From an uncultured bacterium (GTDB taxonomy: Bacteria; CALINM01): a DNA stretch of 6,395 nt. A program made the translations under genes and the position numbers. Where the stretch lies: positions 1 through 6,395 of the forward strand of contig CALINM010000024.1 of assembly GCA_938045315.1 (NCBI GenBank), in the 5' to 3' direction. Below, one piece after another: positions 1-6,288 of this stretch; the stretch's first letter is position 1, and each line of letters begins with the position of its first letter. Under the pieces are notes generated by a model that did no database searches, was not told the DNA's origin, and saw nothing but the letters and a program-made list of their open reading frames with translations.

Positions 1-237
1 TATTTGTTTCAATTCATCTTCAAAATTAGGAATGTCATAAATACTTAATCCAAAGGAGAGCATCCTTTGGATATCATTATTAAATTTATTGCCCAGTTTT
101 CTAATAGATTTATAAATATTATTTCTATAGTCAATGTAAAAATTTATTGTTATCACAGTCGCAGTAATCAGCGTAGCAAATGCTATTGCAGTAAAAACTG
201 TGATATATAAAGGTGCTTTTATTGTTTTTTCTTTCAT
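1..237 (-). CDS. N-terminus of membrane-anchored sensor protein, probably histidine kinase (partial)
   Basis: Seventy-nine codons are open from an ATG at 237 to the window edge, so the C-terminal part is missing. The product starts with a short basic stretch (MKEKTIK), then one hydrophobic segment at about residues 9-32, then a polar, probably periplasmic region. That region contains 'LGNKFNNDIQRMLSFGLSI' followed by 'YDIPNFEDEL'. This pattern (a helix, 'GL.l.dip.fe..L') is common just after the first membrane helix of HAMP-containing sensor kinases and related receptors. No HAMP, kinase or output domain is visible, so the enzyme type is inferred. An in-frame TAA lies two codons upstream of the ATG, which fixes the start region, but I see no good Shine-Dalgarno sequence. 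It follows the binding-protein gene after 53 bases, which suggests a binding-protein/sensor pair. Confidence 0.6.
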   Translation of the reverse strand, partial: MKEKTIKAPLYITVFTAIAFATLITATVITINFYIDYRNNIYKSIRKLGNKFNNDIQRMLSFGLSIYDIPNFEDELKQI

Positions 238-290
238 ACTATTTTATAATTTTAGTTACGTTATTCATAATTACAAATATTATTATTATA
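238..290 (-). other. Short AT-rich intergenic gap before the sensor gene
   Basis: This 53-base gap separates the binding-protein stop from the sensor ATG. It is almost entirely A and T. I see no GC-rich hairpin that could act as a terminator and no convincing promoter pair, so the sensor is probably co-transcribed with the genes before it. Confidence 0.4.
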
Positions 291-1154
291 TCAATTTTTC
301 TTGCTGTTGTCATTTTTAAAATTTACTTCTTTGACCTGCTCACTTTTTTCCATAGATTTACTATCTAAAAAGTTTAGTAAAAAATCAGAAATCAATCTGC
401 CCTTTGCTCTAGGATCTGGTGCTACACACATTAACCCACCAGCATTAGTGACAGTTTCAGATACGGCTACCAATGGGACCCCTTTTTCTATAGCAAATTG
501 AGCAATTTTATTTGCACCTAATTCCAAAATTACGGAAGATGTTAAAAATATAGCATCCATGCTGTTAACATCAATTCCATAAACTGATTGTGGCGAATTT
601 ATAGGATGTAGAACAACTTTAAAACCCTCCTGTGTGCCTAATTCTTTAATTTTGCCTGCTTGAATTTCGCTTTCTTTCTCTATAGGGCAGTATAGTACGT
701 GGAGTGTTTTGAAACTTTTCACAGCCAATAAATGTCTTAGTAAAGTAACTGAAGGTATAACATTATATATTCCTGTCATTTTGTTTGTCTTAAATGCATC
801 AAGAATACCTTTCTCATATACATCAACATATATGAGCGGTACAGAAATTCTTTCTCTTAGAGCAGTATACGCAAGTGGCGCACCAAAAGCAATTATAATA
901 TCTGCTTCTATACCTTCCGCTCTTTTTAATGCATTGGCCCATGATACTGGATCTGGATCAGGAGTTGATAAGATTATCTGGATGTGTGCATCTTTTTTAT
1001 TTTCATGCAAGATTTTTTGTAATTCACTGTAAGCTACCCTGAACTTATCCAAATTTGATGCTAAGATTACAGCCACAATTTTATCTTTTGAATAAGATTG
1101 TCCAACCATCACTGAAGAAAATAAAAGAATCAATAAAACTAACTTTCTTACCAT
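291..1154 (-). CDS. Periplasmic ABC-type substrate-binding protein (PF04392-like)
   Basis: This is a 287-residue exported protein of the ABC_sub_bind type, with the two-lobed periplasmic binding fold. Residues 1-22 form a signal peptide (MVRKLVLLILLFSS core, cut probable after SYS). Family-like segments follow: 'ADIIIAFGAPLAYTAL' at 84-99, 'VPLIYVDV' at 105-112, 'MTGIYNV' at 126-132, 'DAIFLTSS' at 200-207, and 'GVPLVAVSE' to 'GGLMCVAPD' at 225-247. The ligand cannot be read from the sequence. I prefer the ATG at 1154 because GGGA lies six bases upstream. The alternative ATG at 1166 adds MGIK and has no such site. The start overlaps the barrel stop by 7 bases (ATGGTAA), implying translational coupling. 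No permease or ATPase gene is in the window. With a sensor gene directly downstream, it may serve as a sensing rather than a transport component; this is an inference. Confidence 0.85.
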   Translation of the reverse strand: MVRKLVLLILLFSSVMVGQSYSKDKIVAVILASNLDKFRVAYSELQKILHENKKDAHIQIILSTPDPDPVSWANALKRAEGIEADIIIAFGAPLAYTALRERISVPLIYVDVYEKGILDAFKTNKMTGIYNVIPSVTLLRHLLAVKSFKTLHVLYCPIEKESEIQAGKIKELGTQEGFKVVLHPINSPQSVYGIDVNSMDAIFLTSSVILELGANKIAQFAIEKGVPLVAVSETVTNAGGLMCVAPDPRAKGRLISDFLLNFLDSKSMEKSEQVKEVNFKNDNSKKN

Positions 1155-1804
1155 TTTAATTCCCATGGGACAAAGAGCATTTTTATGGTACCTTCAGTAG
1201 AGTATCTCGTTTTATCAATATGATCATTTAGGCTTGCTTCAAATTTGATTTTTGATTTTTTGTTAATTTCAAAAACATTGCCAACTAAAATCCTGTATTG
1301 ATAAAAATCAATGCTTGCCAGACTATCTAACCCTATTGTATTAAATGTATATGTTAAAGGAGGTGGACCTGGTGTAGTTTCACTACCTACAACAAGATGG
1401 GGATAATAGGTGCCATACCCTCTTATATAGCTGATATCAGAATAAACATTATATCTTTTGAATGTTTTATTTACATTTACCCCTCCCTGAAATAAAGTAA
1501 AATCATAGGGAACTTTTTTATCGTAAATAAAAGTAGGTGGTGTATTACCATACTGAATGTGGGATACAAATCTTTCATTATCATAAAAACCATAAATATT
1601 TAGCACCACAATATCTTTCAAGTCAAACCAGCAATTTAAAAATTGCTTTAACTCCTTGCTTCTAACAAAAAAACTATTCTCTGAATTGTTTTTTGAAGCA
1701 ATATACTCACTCTGTAAATATATACCTGAAAAACTATCATGGCCATTAGTTGAATACTCAATTTCTGATGTTTTTTTTGTAAGATGGATTGTAATTATTC
1801 TCAA
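1148..1804 (-). CDS. Barrel fragment 3: C-terminal strands ending in Trp
   Basis: This segment is in another frame and overlaps fragment 2 by 47 bases. True barrel sequence starts just after the A8 run, at 'TSEIEYSTNGHDSF'. The first ten or so residues of the open segment (MRIITIHLTK) are a shadow of the fragment 2 sequence. Strands continue to the final 'KIKFEASLNDH' and 'GTIKMLFVPWELKW'. It has no signal peptide or start of its own and makes sense only as the end of the same barrel. Confidence 0.5.
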   Translation of the reverse strand: MRIITIHLTKKTSEIEYSTNGHDSFSGIYLQSEYIASKNNSENSFFVRSKELKQFLNCWFDLKDIVVLNIYGFYDNERFVSHIQYGNTPPTFIYDKKVPYDFTLFQGGVNVNKTFKRYNVYSDISYIRGYGTYYPHLVVGSETTPGPPPLTYTFNTIGLDSLASIDFYQYRILVGNVFEINKKSKIKFEASLNDHIDKTRYSTEGTIKMLFVPWELKW

Positions 1805-2180
1805 CTTTTTGAGAAATTTTATAGTAAAAACCTTTCTTAGATCTACCTTCTACTGAAAAAATGCCTTTATTAGTATAAGAATATTCAGGAAGAGTAAAGT
1901 AGTTAAAGCTTCTATCAATTTCGGTCCTTTTCAAATATAGCTTAAAAATTAAAAGGGGTGATAATTCATATAAACCGGACAAATCAGCCGTTTTTTTTAC
2001 AAATGAAACAGCATCTTTAATACCTACAATATCTGTATTTAAAAATCTAACAGTATCAGGATTATTCTGCTCCCTATCAGTATAAATAACTTTTAAAGTT
2101 AACTTAAAATTTTTTCTTGGATAATATGCAAGGGAAACTAATGCATTATTTTGAGTCACATTGGCACCTTCACGTCCCAT
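1758..2180 (-). CDS. Barrel fragment 2: middle strands, same frame as fragment 1
   Basis: This 140-codon open segment begins with ATG directly after the TAA of fragment 1, in the same frame. It continues the barrel pattern, for example 'NNALVSLAYYPRKNFKLTLK' and then 'VIYTDRE', and a later strand 'KGFYYKISQKVENN'. It has no signal peptide, so it would not be exported as a separate protein. The last residues after the A run (NIRN) are probably out of frame. AGAG five bases before the ATG could allow weak re-initiation, but an independent gene is unlikely. Confidence 0.45.
   Translation of the reverse strand: MGREGANVTQNNALVSLAYYPRKNFKLTLKVIYTDREQNNPDTVRFLNTDIVGIKDAVSFVKKTADLSGLYELSPLLIFKLYLKRTEIDRSFNYFTLPEYSYTNKGIFSVEGRSKKGFYYKISQKVENNYNPSYKKNIRN
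1771..1778 (-). other. A8 homopolymer at the barrel frameshift
   Basis: On the minus strand, TAC is followed by eight A and then CATCAG. With eight A the reading is Y-K-K-N-I-R-N-stop. With seven it is Y-K-K-T-S-E-I-E-Y, which continues as barrel sequence for over 200 residues. The run is therefore the exact place where the frame is lost. Confidence 0.8.
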
Positions 2181-2183
2181 TTA
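2181..2183 (-). other. In-frame TAA inside the barrel gene, followed by ATG
   Basis: The minus strand reads GAT-TAA-ATG-GGA. The sequence on both sides is in one frame and looks like a single loop between two strands (NNHNRD, stop, MGREGANVTQNN). This favours a nonsense change over a natural gene boundary. Confidence 0.75.
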
Positions 2184-3011
2184 ATCTCTATTATGATTGT
2201 TTGTATCCCTTCTATTCACAGCAAAAGCCCAGCTTAATTGTCCTGTAAGGTTACTATATAATTTAAAATCATATGCGGTTTTATTTATATTTGGATAATT
2301 TAAAAGGTAATCTGGTGAATTATGATGTTTATTAGAAAAATTCTCTGAAATTAATTCACCAACAAAGCCAACTCCTCCAAAAATTCCATCTAATGTACCT
2401 GTTACTCTCTCGGTTTCAAATCTAATCTGCCTATCTCTTGAAAAAATATTACTCCTTATGCTAGCCGGTAGGGATAAAATATTGACATCAAAACTTCTAC
2501 TACCAAAAAACCTTTTCTGTATCGTCCCATCTCTTTCTATATCTTCTATAAAAAGTTTTAGATGTAAGGGATAATTATAAAGCTTATATTTAACTAAAAA
2601 ACTATTCTTGGAAAAATCTATTTTATATTTAGTGTAAGGATTCAGATCGTAAATTTGAGGGTTATAAAGTAGTTTTTTATGATCAAAATTATGAATAAAA
2701 CCAGTACTATTAAAATTCAGACAAATCGTATCTTTATGAATAAAACTTAAATACACATTTCTGTTATCTTTCTCATCTAAAAGTGCATCAAATATTATTT
2801 TATTATTAGGAGCCAAATCTTTATATATTAAAGAAAAATAAGGAGATGACTTTGCAGTATCATATTCAACAACTAAATTCAAAAAACCATCATACGAGTA
2901 AAACCTATAACCCAGGGAAGCATTTATTTCTCTATATTCGATCTCATCTGCCAAGCCAATCTTGAAAAAAATAAAAAAAATTATAATCAAATATAAACAT
3001 TTTTTCATCAT
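2181..3011 (-). CDS. Barrel fragment 1: signal peptide and N-terminal strands
   Basis: This is the first 276 residues of the interrupted barrel. It carries the signal peptide and strands such as 'EINASLGYRFYSYDG' and 'GQLSWAFAVNRRD', ending in a polar loop (NNHNRD) at the TAA. It has the strongest ribosome binding site in the window. If translated alone it would be an exported but incomplete barrel lacking the C-terminal signature used for outer-membrane insertion, so a working porin is unlikely from this piece by itself. Confidence 0.6.
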   Translation of the reverse strand: MMKKCLYLIIIFFIFFKIGLADEIEYREINASLGYRFYSYDGFLNLVVEYDTAKSSPYFSLIYKDLAPNNKIIFDALLDEKDNRNVYLSFIHKDTICLNFNSTGFIHNFDHKKLLYNPQIYDLNPYTKYKIDFSKNSFLVKYKLYNYPLHLKLFIEDIERDGTIQKRFFGSRSFDVNILSLPASIRSNIFSRDRQIRFETERVTGTLDGIFGGVGFVGELISENFSNKHHNSPDYLLNYPNINKTAYDFKLYSNLTGQLSWAFAVNRRDTNNHNRD

Positions 3012-3013
3012 CC

Positions 3014-3019
3014 CCTCCT
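3014..3019 (-). promoter_or_regulatory. Ribosome binding site AGGAGG formed by the cytochrome stop region
   Basis: The cytochrome stop TAG runs into the Shine-Dalgarno sequence of the barrel gene (TAGGAGGGGATGATG). AGGAGG lies two bases from the ATG at 3011 and five from the ATG at 3008, so the second ATG is the more likely start. The arrangement couples cytochrome and barrel translation tightly. Confidence 0.8.
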
Positions 3020-4016
3020 ACCTTAACATATGACCTTGTCTTTTTGGTAAAGTAGTAGTTGATCCAGAGGGGGTATCTGTACCATGTATAGATAAATGGC
3101 AATCGGTGCACCTATTATAGAATTTCAACTTATTTTGATTTGTCAACGCTTGACTTCTAAAAGAATGATGTCCTTCATGACATCTTAAACACAAAATTGG
3201 TTCTCTAACCTTAAGAAGATTATCATTCCCTGAACCATGGGGCACATGACAATTGTTACAATCCTCCATTAGATCAGCATGTTCAAAAATATACGGACCA
3301 CCTTTTTCAGTGTGACATTTAGAACAAGTTTCTCTTACTGATTCATCTTTTAATAAATTAGATGTCATGCTACCATGAGGATCATGGCAATCAGTACATA
3401 CAACTTTTTTTTCGTAAAAGGGATGCCTGGATAAATTTGAGATTTCAGCTTTAATTCTTTTATGACAATTTAAACACAGGTTGATTTGTTCGTCATGGCT
3501 AACTTTTTGTAAAGGTGAAGTGTGCAACCTGTGGCAATCACTACATGCAACTCCTGCTAAATCGTGTGAGGAGCCACGCCACATGGCAAGATTTGGTGTT
3601 GAAGCTTTAGTATGACATTTAAGACATATAATATTCTTTGCCTCAGAGGGTAATTTTTTTAAATTGATAAGACTTTCAAAATCACATTGTTTTTTACCAT
3701 TAACTACCTTAATATTCTCAATTGCTAAACTACCAGGGCCATGACAGGTTTCACAATTAACCAGAGGTAAATGAGTCTCCCTATCAACCTGTTCAGCATG
3801 AACACTTTTTTTAAAATAATCTGCAAGTTTTTTATGTTCATTACCTTTATCATGGCAATTTTTAAGACAGTTATCAGTACCAATATATTCTGCATCAATC
3901 CTTCCAGCAACCATCTTTTCAATTTCAGATTGTTTAAGCAAAGGCTTTGACTCGGTTAAATAACTACAACTATGAAATATTAAAAATAGTACTAATAAAT
4001 AACTAATCTTTATCAT
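3018..4016 (-). CDS. DmsE/MtrA-type decaheme c-type cytochrome, probable lipoprotein
   Basis: This 332-residue multiheme cytochrome probably carries electrons through the periplasm into an outer-membrane barrel, as MtrA does with MtrB. It has nine CXXCH motifs, with first Cys at residues 88, 131, 158, 181, 207, 231, 253, 276 and 303. One CX3CH (CLKNCH, 50-55) lies where the first heme is expected, giving ten potential hemes. Family-like features are 'CETCHGPGS', 'CTDCHDPHGSM' and the C-terminal 'CTDCHLSIHGTDTPSG'. Length also fits DmsE/MtrA proteins. The N-terminus MIKISYLLVLFLIFHSC looks like a lipoprotein signal with Cys17 as anchor, although His at -2 and Phe at -3 are atypical. I chose the ATG at 4016. 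A TTG at 4049 would add 11 residues but sits inside the likely -10 element. An extra Cys at 111 is not in a heme motif. The barrel gene follows directly. Confidence 0.9.
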   Translation of the reverse strand: MIKISYLLVLFLIFHSCSYLTESKPLLKQSEIEKMVAGRIDAEYIGTDNCLKNCHDKGNEHKKLADYFKKSVHAEQVDRETHLPLVNCETCHGPGSLAIENIKVVNGKKQCDFESLINLKKLPSEAKNIICLKCHTKASTPNLAMWRGSSHDLAGVACSDCHRLHTSPLQKVSHDEQINLCLNCHKRIKAEISNLSRHPFYEKKVVCTDCHDPHGSMTSNLLKDESVRETCSKCHTEKGGPYIFEHADLMEDCNNCHVPHGSGNDNLLKVREPILCLRCHEGHHSFRSQALTNQNKLKFYNRCTDCHLSIHGTDTPSGSTTTLPKRQGHMLR

Positions 4017-4117: not shown

Positions 4118-5155
4118 TTATAAAATCCCGTATTTTTCTCTAAGCCTGAGCGATAAATCCCTTAACCAGGAATAAGCATCTTCAACTGTTTTAAATTCAT
4201 CAGGATTAAGTAGCGCACAAGTCGCTGGCATTATTATACTTTTAGCAAGAACCTCTTTTATATCAAATCCCTCTTTCAACAATTCATTCCATAACCTTTC
4301 TATATGATGGATCAAGTTTATCTGACTCTCCTTTTGAAACTCATCAAAATTTGCCGGTACTAATCCCCAACCTATAATTCCCCCTCTTTCCAAAAATCTT
4401 TTAATACTTCCTTTATATTTAACAAATATTTCACCACAGTTATAAGCATTGAAAGAAAGTATATCAATATCAAGATTAAGAAGGAAATCCCAATCGGGGT
4501 TACCACAAAGATGTATTCCTCTGGGATGTTCTATTTGATTGAAAAATATTTCAAAATCTTTTTTAGCCATATCATTTGTATACCCGGAAACACTGCTAAA
4601 AATATACTGTAACCCCGGTTCATCAATGAAGATAAAAGCCCTTGGGTTTTTTTCTTTAAGTTCATTTAATTGAACATTCGCCTTTTTAGCCATAAAGTCA
4701 AAGAGTATTGACCTAACTTCTTCATTAAAAATGATTGGCTTCTTATTTTCATCAAGAACTTTAAGGCCAAAACTAACGGGCCCCTCTAATTGCCCCCTTA
4801 TTGATATATATTTTGAAAGGTCGAAACCCAAAAAAGTATGATAGGTAGCAGAATATTTAGGTGACATTCTAAAAAAATCTGGGTTCTCAAAATTTGCAAA
4901 AGTATTTTCTAACTCAGTATAAAACTTTGCTGTGTCAAAATAAATATTAAGCCTATCAGGTTCTAATATTATACCAGGAAAATTCTCTGACGCTTGAACA
5001 TACATATCCTCAAAAAAACTCATCTTCGGTAATTGAGGCCAAAAAGGTATATCAACGGACATTGATATTTTTAAAGCCCTATCCATGTCCCTGTGGGGAA
5101 GTATTCCCATCCCCGTAGTCAGCAGATTCCCATCAAAGGGCATAAGTTTATTCAC
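4118..5155 (-). CDS. UROD/MetE-superfamily TIM-barrel protein, possible cobalamin-linked methyltransferase
   Basis: This 345-residue protein resembles the catalytic half of cobalamin-independent methionine synthase and related uroporphyrinogen-decarboxylase-like methyltransferases. Visible motifs are 'TTGMGILPHRD' at 13-23, 'FIDEPGL' at 176-182 (compare 'DEPAL' of MetE), 'HLCGNPDW' at 215-222 and 'MPATCALLNPDE' at 309-320. His215, Cys217 and Cys313 match the order of three zinc ligands of MetE. The place of the MetE glutamate ligand, in 'DILSFNAYN', appears to be Asn236. The length is about half of full MetE, as in single-domain core-MetE-like proteins. The substrate is not readable and a true methionine synthase role is not shown. 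The start is GTG at 5155, with GGA nine bases upstream; the ATG at 5143 has no such site. The GTGA overlap with the deacetylase gene suggests coupled translation. Confidence 0.75.
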   Translation of the reverse strand: MNKLMPFDGNLLTTGMGILPHRDMDRALKISMSVDIPFWPQLPKMSFFEDMYVQASENFPGIILEPDRLNIYFDTAKFYTELENTFANFENPDFFRMSPKYSATYHTFLGFDLSKYISIRGQLEGPVSFGLKVLDENKKPIIFNEEVRSILFDFMAKKANVQLNELKEKNPRAFIFIDEPGLQYIFSSVSGYTNDMAKKDFEIFFNQIEHPRGIHLCGNPDWDFLLNLDIDILSFNAYNCGEIFVKYKGSIKRFLERGGIIGWGLVPANFDEFQKESQINLIHHIERLWNELLKEGFDIKEVLAKSIIMPATCALLNPDEFKTVEDAYSWLRDLSLRLREKYGIL

Positions 5156-6288
5156 AACTTTCTATCCTTTATGTGAGGTATAATTTTTTCATATATAATT
5201 TCAATTTCTTTATCAACAACTTTAAGTAACTTTTTTTTCTGTTCATCAACTAATGAGTATTGCTTCCCAAAAATATTATCATCTTCAAAGCCATATTTAG
5301 CATAATTTTTTAAATATTCCTGAGGTATCTTACTATTAATTTCAACATTATTCATTATTGCCCAAGCAACTGTCCAAGCCCTGGCAACACATGCTATGTC
5401 GTATCCACCACCACCAAGTGCAATTAATGGTATTTTAAAATCTAATATTTTTTTCACAGCTTTTGCAAAACCGTAAATAGAGTAGTTTAGATGGGCGAGG
5501 GGATCATCATACAAAGTATCTACACCTAACTGAGCAATTATAATATCTGGTTTAAACCTATTTATACACTCTGCAACAACTCTATCAAAAGCATAGTGAA
5601 ATACATCATCATCACTATAAGGTGGCAATGGAACATTTATCGTATAACCGTAACCATCATTTTCTCCCATCTCCTCAACAAATCCAGTCCCTGGGAAAAG
5701 ATAATAACCAGTTTCGTGTATCGATATTTTTAAAACACGGTCTGTATTGTAAAAAATATGCTGAACACCATCACCATGATGAGCATCAATATCAATATAT
5801 GCAACCCTTTTACCACTATCTATCAAATATTTTATAGCAACAGCTATATCATTAATATAGCAAAACCCAGAAGCTCTATTTGGCAAAGCGTGATGAAGCC
5901 CTCCAGAAATATTAAAAGATAAGTCCACTTTTCCATCTAATACTAGTTTTGTAGCTTCCAATGTAGCACCAGCTACAAGCATAGACCAATCGAAAAGACC
6001 ATTAAAAATAGGATTATCTCCGTAGCCCAAACCAAATTGAATGGAATAAGGTACATCAACACCACTGTTTAATGCTTTTAAAACATCGATGTAATCACGG
6101 GTGTGGACTTTTAAAACATCCTTTTCTTCAGCGTATTTTGGAATGACAAACAAAGAATCTTTTAGCACATGCAGGTTATAAGATTTTATCAATTCATAAG
6201 TTAATTTTAGTCTGAAAGGTTTTAAAGGATGGGTATCACTATACTTAAATTTTGCAAAATCATCCGTATAAATAAAGGCCGTTTTCAT
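5152..6288 (-). CDS. acuC: AcuC/class I histone deacetylase-like zinc deacetylase
   Basis: This 378-residue cytoplasmic enzyme belongs to the arginase/deacetylase fold. Characterised AcuC removes acetyl groups from lysine, in Bacillus from acetyl-CoA synthetase. The active-site elements are all present: 'SGGLHHALPNRASGFCYIND' at 128-147 with the His132-His133 pair, 'YIDIDAHHGDGVQ' at 164-176 with zinc ligands Asp168 and His170, 'QLGVDTLYDDPLAHLNYS' at 253-270 with zinc ligand Asp257, and 'LGGGGYD' at 291-297 with the catalytic Tyr296. The length is close to Bacillus AcuC. No signal peptide is seen. The ATG at 6288 begins the natural N-terminus (MKTAFIYTDDF), though no clear Shine-Dalgarno sequence precedes it. 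The protein substrate here is unknown; an acetyl-CoA synthetase is the family-based guess, and none is in the window. The symbol reflects family resemblance, not proven function. Confidence 0.9.
   Translation of the reverse strand: MKTAFIYTDDFAKFKYSDTHPLKPFRLKLTYELIKSYNLHVLKDSLFVIPKYAEEKDVLKVHTRDYIDVLKALNSGVDVPYSIQFGLGYGDNPIFNGLFDWSMLVAGATLEATKLVLDGKVDLSFNISGGLHHALPNRASGFCYINDIAVAIKYLIDSGKRVAYIDIDAHHGDGVQHIFYNTDRVLKISIHETGYYLFPGTGFVEEMGENDGYGYTINVPLPPYSDDDVFHYAFDRVVAECINRFKPDIIIAQLGVDTLYDDPLAHLNYSIYGFAKAVKKILDFKIPLIALGGGGYDIACVARAWTVAWAIMNNVEINSKIPQEYLKNYAKYGFEDDNIFGKQYSLVDEQKKKLLKVVDKEIEIIYEKIIPHIKDRKL

Follow-up and report, generated by a model that had tools for sequence, protein, structure and literature searches.

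A gene for a predicted outer-membrane beta-barrel, encoded beside a decaheme c-type cytochrome in the draft genome of an uncultured bacterium, is interrupted by a nonsense codon and, further downstream, by a frameshift, and the gene overlapping its end, for a binding protein, has lost its frame as well. We consider it probable that these lesions are real and that they mark one or more recent pseudogenes in a decaying operon, which is to say ordinary gene loss. The window analysed here is one whole contig of 6,395 bases (C24) from a draft of 244 contigs and 1.86 Mb (G000). It was studied within a set of three genomes from an almost unsampled phylum, the other two being a sister species in the same genus (G001) and a relative in the same family (G002).

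On its minus strand, the window is transcribed in the order histone-deacetylase-like protein, methionine-synthase/UroD-like protein, decaheme cytochrome, predicted barrel, binding protein and the start of a chemoreceptor. The sister species has the same gene order, and a short contig of G002 preserves it for the portion from cytochrome to chemoreceptor, so the adjacency of cytochrome and barrel is conserved in both relatives (a DNA search of G000 against G001 was too insensitive for mapping orthologous contigs). The histone-deacetylase/AcuC-like gene (5152..6288; PF00850; 74% identity to the sister species) and the methionine-synthase/UroD-like gene (4118..5155; 88% identity) are intact neighbours on this strand. 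The chemoreceptor, a methyl-accepting chemotaxis protein of 684 amino acids in the sister species, is present as its first 79 codons (1..237, minus strand), in frame until the contig end truncates it.

The cytochrome gene (3018..4016, minus strand) is in frame, and its product falls within the decaheme DmsE/MtrA type (TIGR03508, 243 bits against a cut-off of 192). It is 80% identical to its orthologue in the sister species, and an alignment search with it matched the G001 and G002 relatives only. A motif count gives nine CX2CH heme motifs and one CX3CH, the latter being the first heme motif of the protein (CLKNCH, with CLFKCH in G002). At the N-terminus, a lipobox-like SC is shared by the window and the sister species, and G002 has GC.

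The broken gene itself extends over 1148..3011 on the minus strand, as delimited by alignment with its orthologues, which are unbroken single frames of 625 codons in the sister species (63% identity) and 594 codons in G002 (32%). Its prediction as a barrel is based on a signal-peptide-like start, a KW end and its position beside the cytochrome. The original prediction reported a TAA with an immediate ATG, and both are present: codon 277 of the barrel frame is TAA (2181..2183, minus strand) and codon 278 is ATG (2180-2178), the window reading GAT-TAA-ATG where the sister species reads GAT-GAA-ATA. G002 also has Glu at the position of the stop. The stop codon is thus the product of a single base change, and the ATG that follows it is a separate Ile(ATA)-to-Met difference from the sister species, for which a special explanation is unneeded. 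Judged by sequence pattern, the stop appears to sit in a long loop between two strands.

The 140-codon continuation described earlier is indeed open in frame, but it is a second lesion that closes it, not the gene's natural end. This lesion is a +1 frameshift at 1771..1778 (minus strand), where the window has a run of eight A (T8 on the plus strand) and the sister species has seven. The first barrel frame meets a stop 4 codons past this run, and the last 207 codons, as far as the conserved KW end, occupy a different frame (about 1771 to 1148); the orthologue alignments also indicate a 15-base in-frame shortening just downstream of the A8 run. All segments align to a single orthologous protein, so the lesions amount to more than a chance reading of a list of open reading frames. 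Compared with intact orthologues, the window copy thus carries the frame-destroying lesions of a pseudogene, namely the TAA and the +1 frameshift. No second intact copy of the barrel was found in G000, and nothing was found when the first barrel segment was scanned against the genome_contigs set.

A third lesion lies in the adjacent gene. An ABC_sub_bind-type periplasmic binding protein (PF04392) is encoded at 291..1154 on the minus strand, its ATG overlapping the barrel stop (ATGGTAA), and its alignment shows that the frame is lost near the end. DNA alignment with the sister species reveals a 5-bp deletion near 314..323 (minus strand), which shifts the last ~25 codons; the tail is still readable in the neighbouring frame (239..316, minus strand), where the remainder KMTTARKIDIIIIFVIMNNVTKIIK aligns to NMKTAKRINITIPFTVLNNVTKVIK of the sister species. 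The cytochrome, the binding protein and the visible part of the sensor had all been described as intact. That description holds for the cytochrome and for the 79 sensor codons, but not for the binding protein.

No sign of relaxed selection was seen in the barrel gene. Relative to the sister species, dN/dS takes values of 0.15 upstream of the stop, 0.12 from the stop to the frameshift and 0.14 beyond the frameshift, all of them rough given a dS of 1.6-2.1. When G002 serves as outgroup, 37 residues are unique to the window and 34 to the sister species, balanced overall and in each segment. Such equally strong constraint, with no excess in rate, implies that the lesions are either very recent or errors. 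By these measures, the barrel gene was evolving as an intact gene until very recently, or is still doing so. If the barrel has been lost, the loss must therefore be very recent, and the absence of relaxed selection is then what is expected.

The unchanged constraint on either side of each lesion counts in favour of the explanation that we find somewhat unlikely but a live alternative beside barrel loss: that a draft assembled at low coverage introduced the lesions as errors and that the operon of the organism is intact. A base error had been named as the third option from the outset, and it had been proposed that a close relative with a sense codon at this site would point to one. Both relatives do have Glu here, but the sister species is a different species (63% identity), which leaves error unproven. 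An A8 slip is a common type of error, and a draft in this many contigs, with a window of this length, counts against decay. The distribution of the lesions speaks against error, as three fall within 2.7 kb of the operon, whereas the window's three other complete genes, 3.2 kb together, are free of them.

A survey of broken genes bears on both explanations. The stretches sampled came to about 515 kb in G000, where the letters of some short contigs were N, and 956 kb in G001. Many flagged stops were start-site or antisense artefacts, and other flagged genes of G000 reflected start-site or edge effects. After inspection, about 10 of 202 orthologues were truly broken in G000, mostly weakly conserved genes, whereas the reciprocal comparison gave no clear case among 178 in G001 (Fisher p 0.002, on hand-sorted counts). 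This disparity favours genuine recent pseudogenes, but it is also compatible with error, the sister being the better-assembled genome. Identity below 70% was found for 5 of 9 broken genes and 33 of 225 intact ones (Fisher p 0.007), a comparison to be read with the caveat that decay itself lowers identity and that the barrel is without such a drop. Errors spread evenly over the genome would not produce this lean toward weakly conserved genes. Most indels lie outside homopolymers, and for some genes base-calling slips are excluded: a 141-bp deletion in livF, a long deletion inside a GGDEF sensor and the reduction of an octaheme cytochrome to a remnant. The conserved domains of synthetases, EF-Tu-type proteins and ABC ATPases in G000 contain no clear internal stops; a single flagged TGA, in a MetG-like match, has a counterpart flag in G001.

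One argument for error comes from a single gene. In G000 adenylate kinase has just one gene (C32:10401-11045; L092, L143), with TAA at codon 96 where the sister species has TTA, and the remainder of the gene is 91% identical to that of the sister species. The adenylate kinase gene is normally essential. An internal stop in the sole copy is hard to accept as real and counts against decay, and it suggests that error may account for at least some of the draft's stops. A multiheme gene on contig C31, with several frameshifts yet readable heme motifs, adds to the case for error.

Other broken or shortened genes of the draft vary in the form of their lesions. Contig C57 (L119) holds several, including livF, in which a 4-bp insertion accompanies the deletion, livJ with a 1-bp deletion, and the GGDEF sensor, which has CXXCH motifs in the sister species and is without some 280 codons here. 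The octaheme cytochrome, of the tetrathionate-reductase family, is a short remnant at L085:12685-12908 (C25) and is complete in the sister species (L069:1967-3412). The multiheme region of C31 (L091:1150-2914) is read in several frames, and the relatives have an open frame of 564-569 codons at the apparently matching locus. A seryl-tRNA-synthetase-like match (C93:8402-8944) is open for 337 codons, where the sister species has 431; the shortening may reflect either the edge of a contig or a further lesion.

That the gene is still expressed, through read-through of the stop codon, re-initiation at the ATG or slippage on the A8 run, seems to us very improbable. The ATG directly after the TAA, the possible slippage site offered by the A8 run, and purifying selection visible up to now are all in its favour. 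However, it would take two separate rescues at once: read-through or re-initiation, as originally proposed, is unsupported and would still leave the frameshift at 1771-1778 to block a complete barrel, and slippage would leave the stop in place. Re-initiation would yield only a 140-residue internal piece, terminated by the frameshift and, as the original prediction had recognised, lacking a signal peptide, and the relatives encode the protein in a plain single frame. Reassignment of the stop codon was rejected, and recoding is not indicated, as in-frame TAA replaces Glu, Leu and Lys in different genes. A functional barrel still made from the split gene, whether from its pieces or by read-through and slippage combined, would account for the strong constraint on all segments, and we judge it more doubtful again. 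Least probable of all is that the lesion is polymorphic, the inactive allele having been assembled from a mixed population that still contains intact copies, an idea in keeping with recent lesions, strong constraint and a fragmented draft but at odds with the single gene copy in the bin.

Recent decay is supported by two independent lesions in the barrel gene and a third in the gene adjacent to it, with orthologues intact in both relatives. We hypothesize that very recent, independent lesions inactivated the barrel gene in this lineage, a GAA-to-TAA substitution and a +1 slip in the A run, and that the overlapping binding-protein gene was probably inactivated too, by its 5-bp deletion. The module of cytochrome, barrel, binding protein and chemoreceptor may be spare, given another intact decaheme/MtrB pair in the genome, and would be decaying alongside several other dispensable genes. 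The lesions, the intact orthologues, the constraint on all segments, the second pair and the other broken genes are seen in the sequences; the redundancy of the module, the correctness of the bases at the lesions and the role of the barrel as an outer-membrane conduit are what we infer.

The other pair, on contig C129 of G000, consists of a second decaheme cytochrome and an MtrB/PioB barrel (PF11854, 243 bits), both intact, and because of it the outer-membrane route as such is not lost. The suggestion that this strain had lost its outer-membrane conduit was therefore too strong, even though loss of the window barrel is the best-supported option. The two loci share a common two-gene arrangement, on one strand with the decaheme gene upstream, but the C129 pair is intact and its barrel matches PF11854, whereas the window barrel is neither intact nor matched. 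If the lesions are real, the lineage is freshly discarding one of two predicted outer-membrane electron-transfer modules, whose sequence has not yet decayed; if they are errors, they warn that a lone stop codon in a draft genome is a poor guide to physiology. Either outcome would be unsurprising to a specialist.

From its position, the window barrel would be an outer-membrane cytochrome conduit. As in the MtrAB conduits (MtrA-MtrB of Shewanella, PioAB, and OmaB-OmbB of Geobacter), a DmsE/MtrA-type decaheme gene is followed directly by a predicted barrel of ~600 residues, here in three species. Unlike those conduits, the window barrel matches neither PF11854 (MtrB_PioB) nor the sequence of a solved structure: the intact orthologues had no Pfam matches even at E 1, a PF11854 search of the genomes found other loci only, no PDB sequence match was obtained for the barrel, and the AlphaFold model of the sister-species orthologue, with a mean pLDDT of 32, is too poor to interpret. 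The window also differs in having no MtrC-like surface cytochrome, in the binding protein and chemoreceptor that follow, and in its broken barrel. A parallel for such a loss exists in Geobacter sulfurreducens: when it was kept on an anode for 17 years, mutations arose in conduits with no implicated role in current production and not in those being used (PMC13194489). That study tracked a known strain over years, whereas the present case is read from one draft genome in a poorly sampled phylum. In both, a conduit that is, or here may be, dispensable has been damaged while another stands intact.
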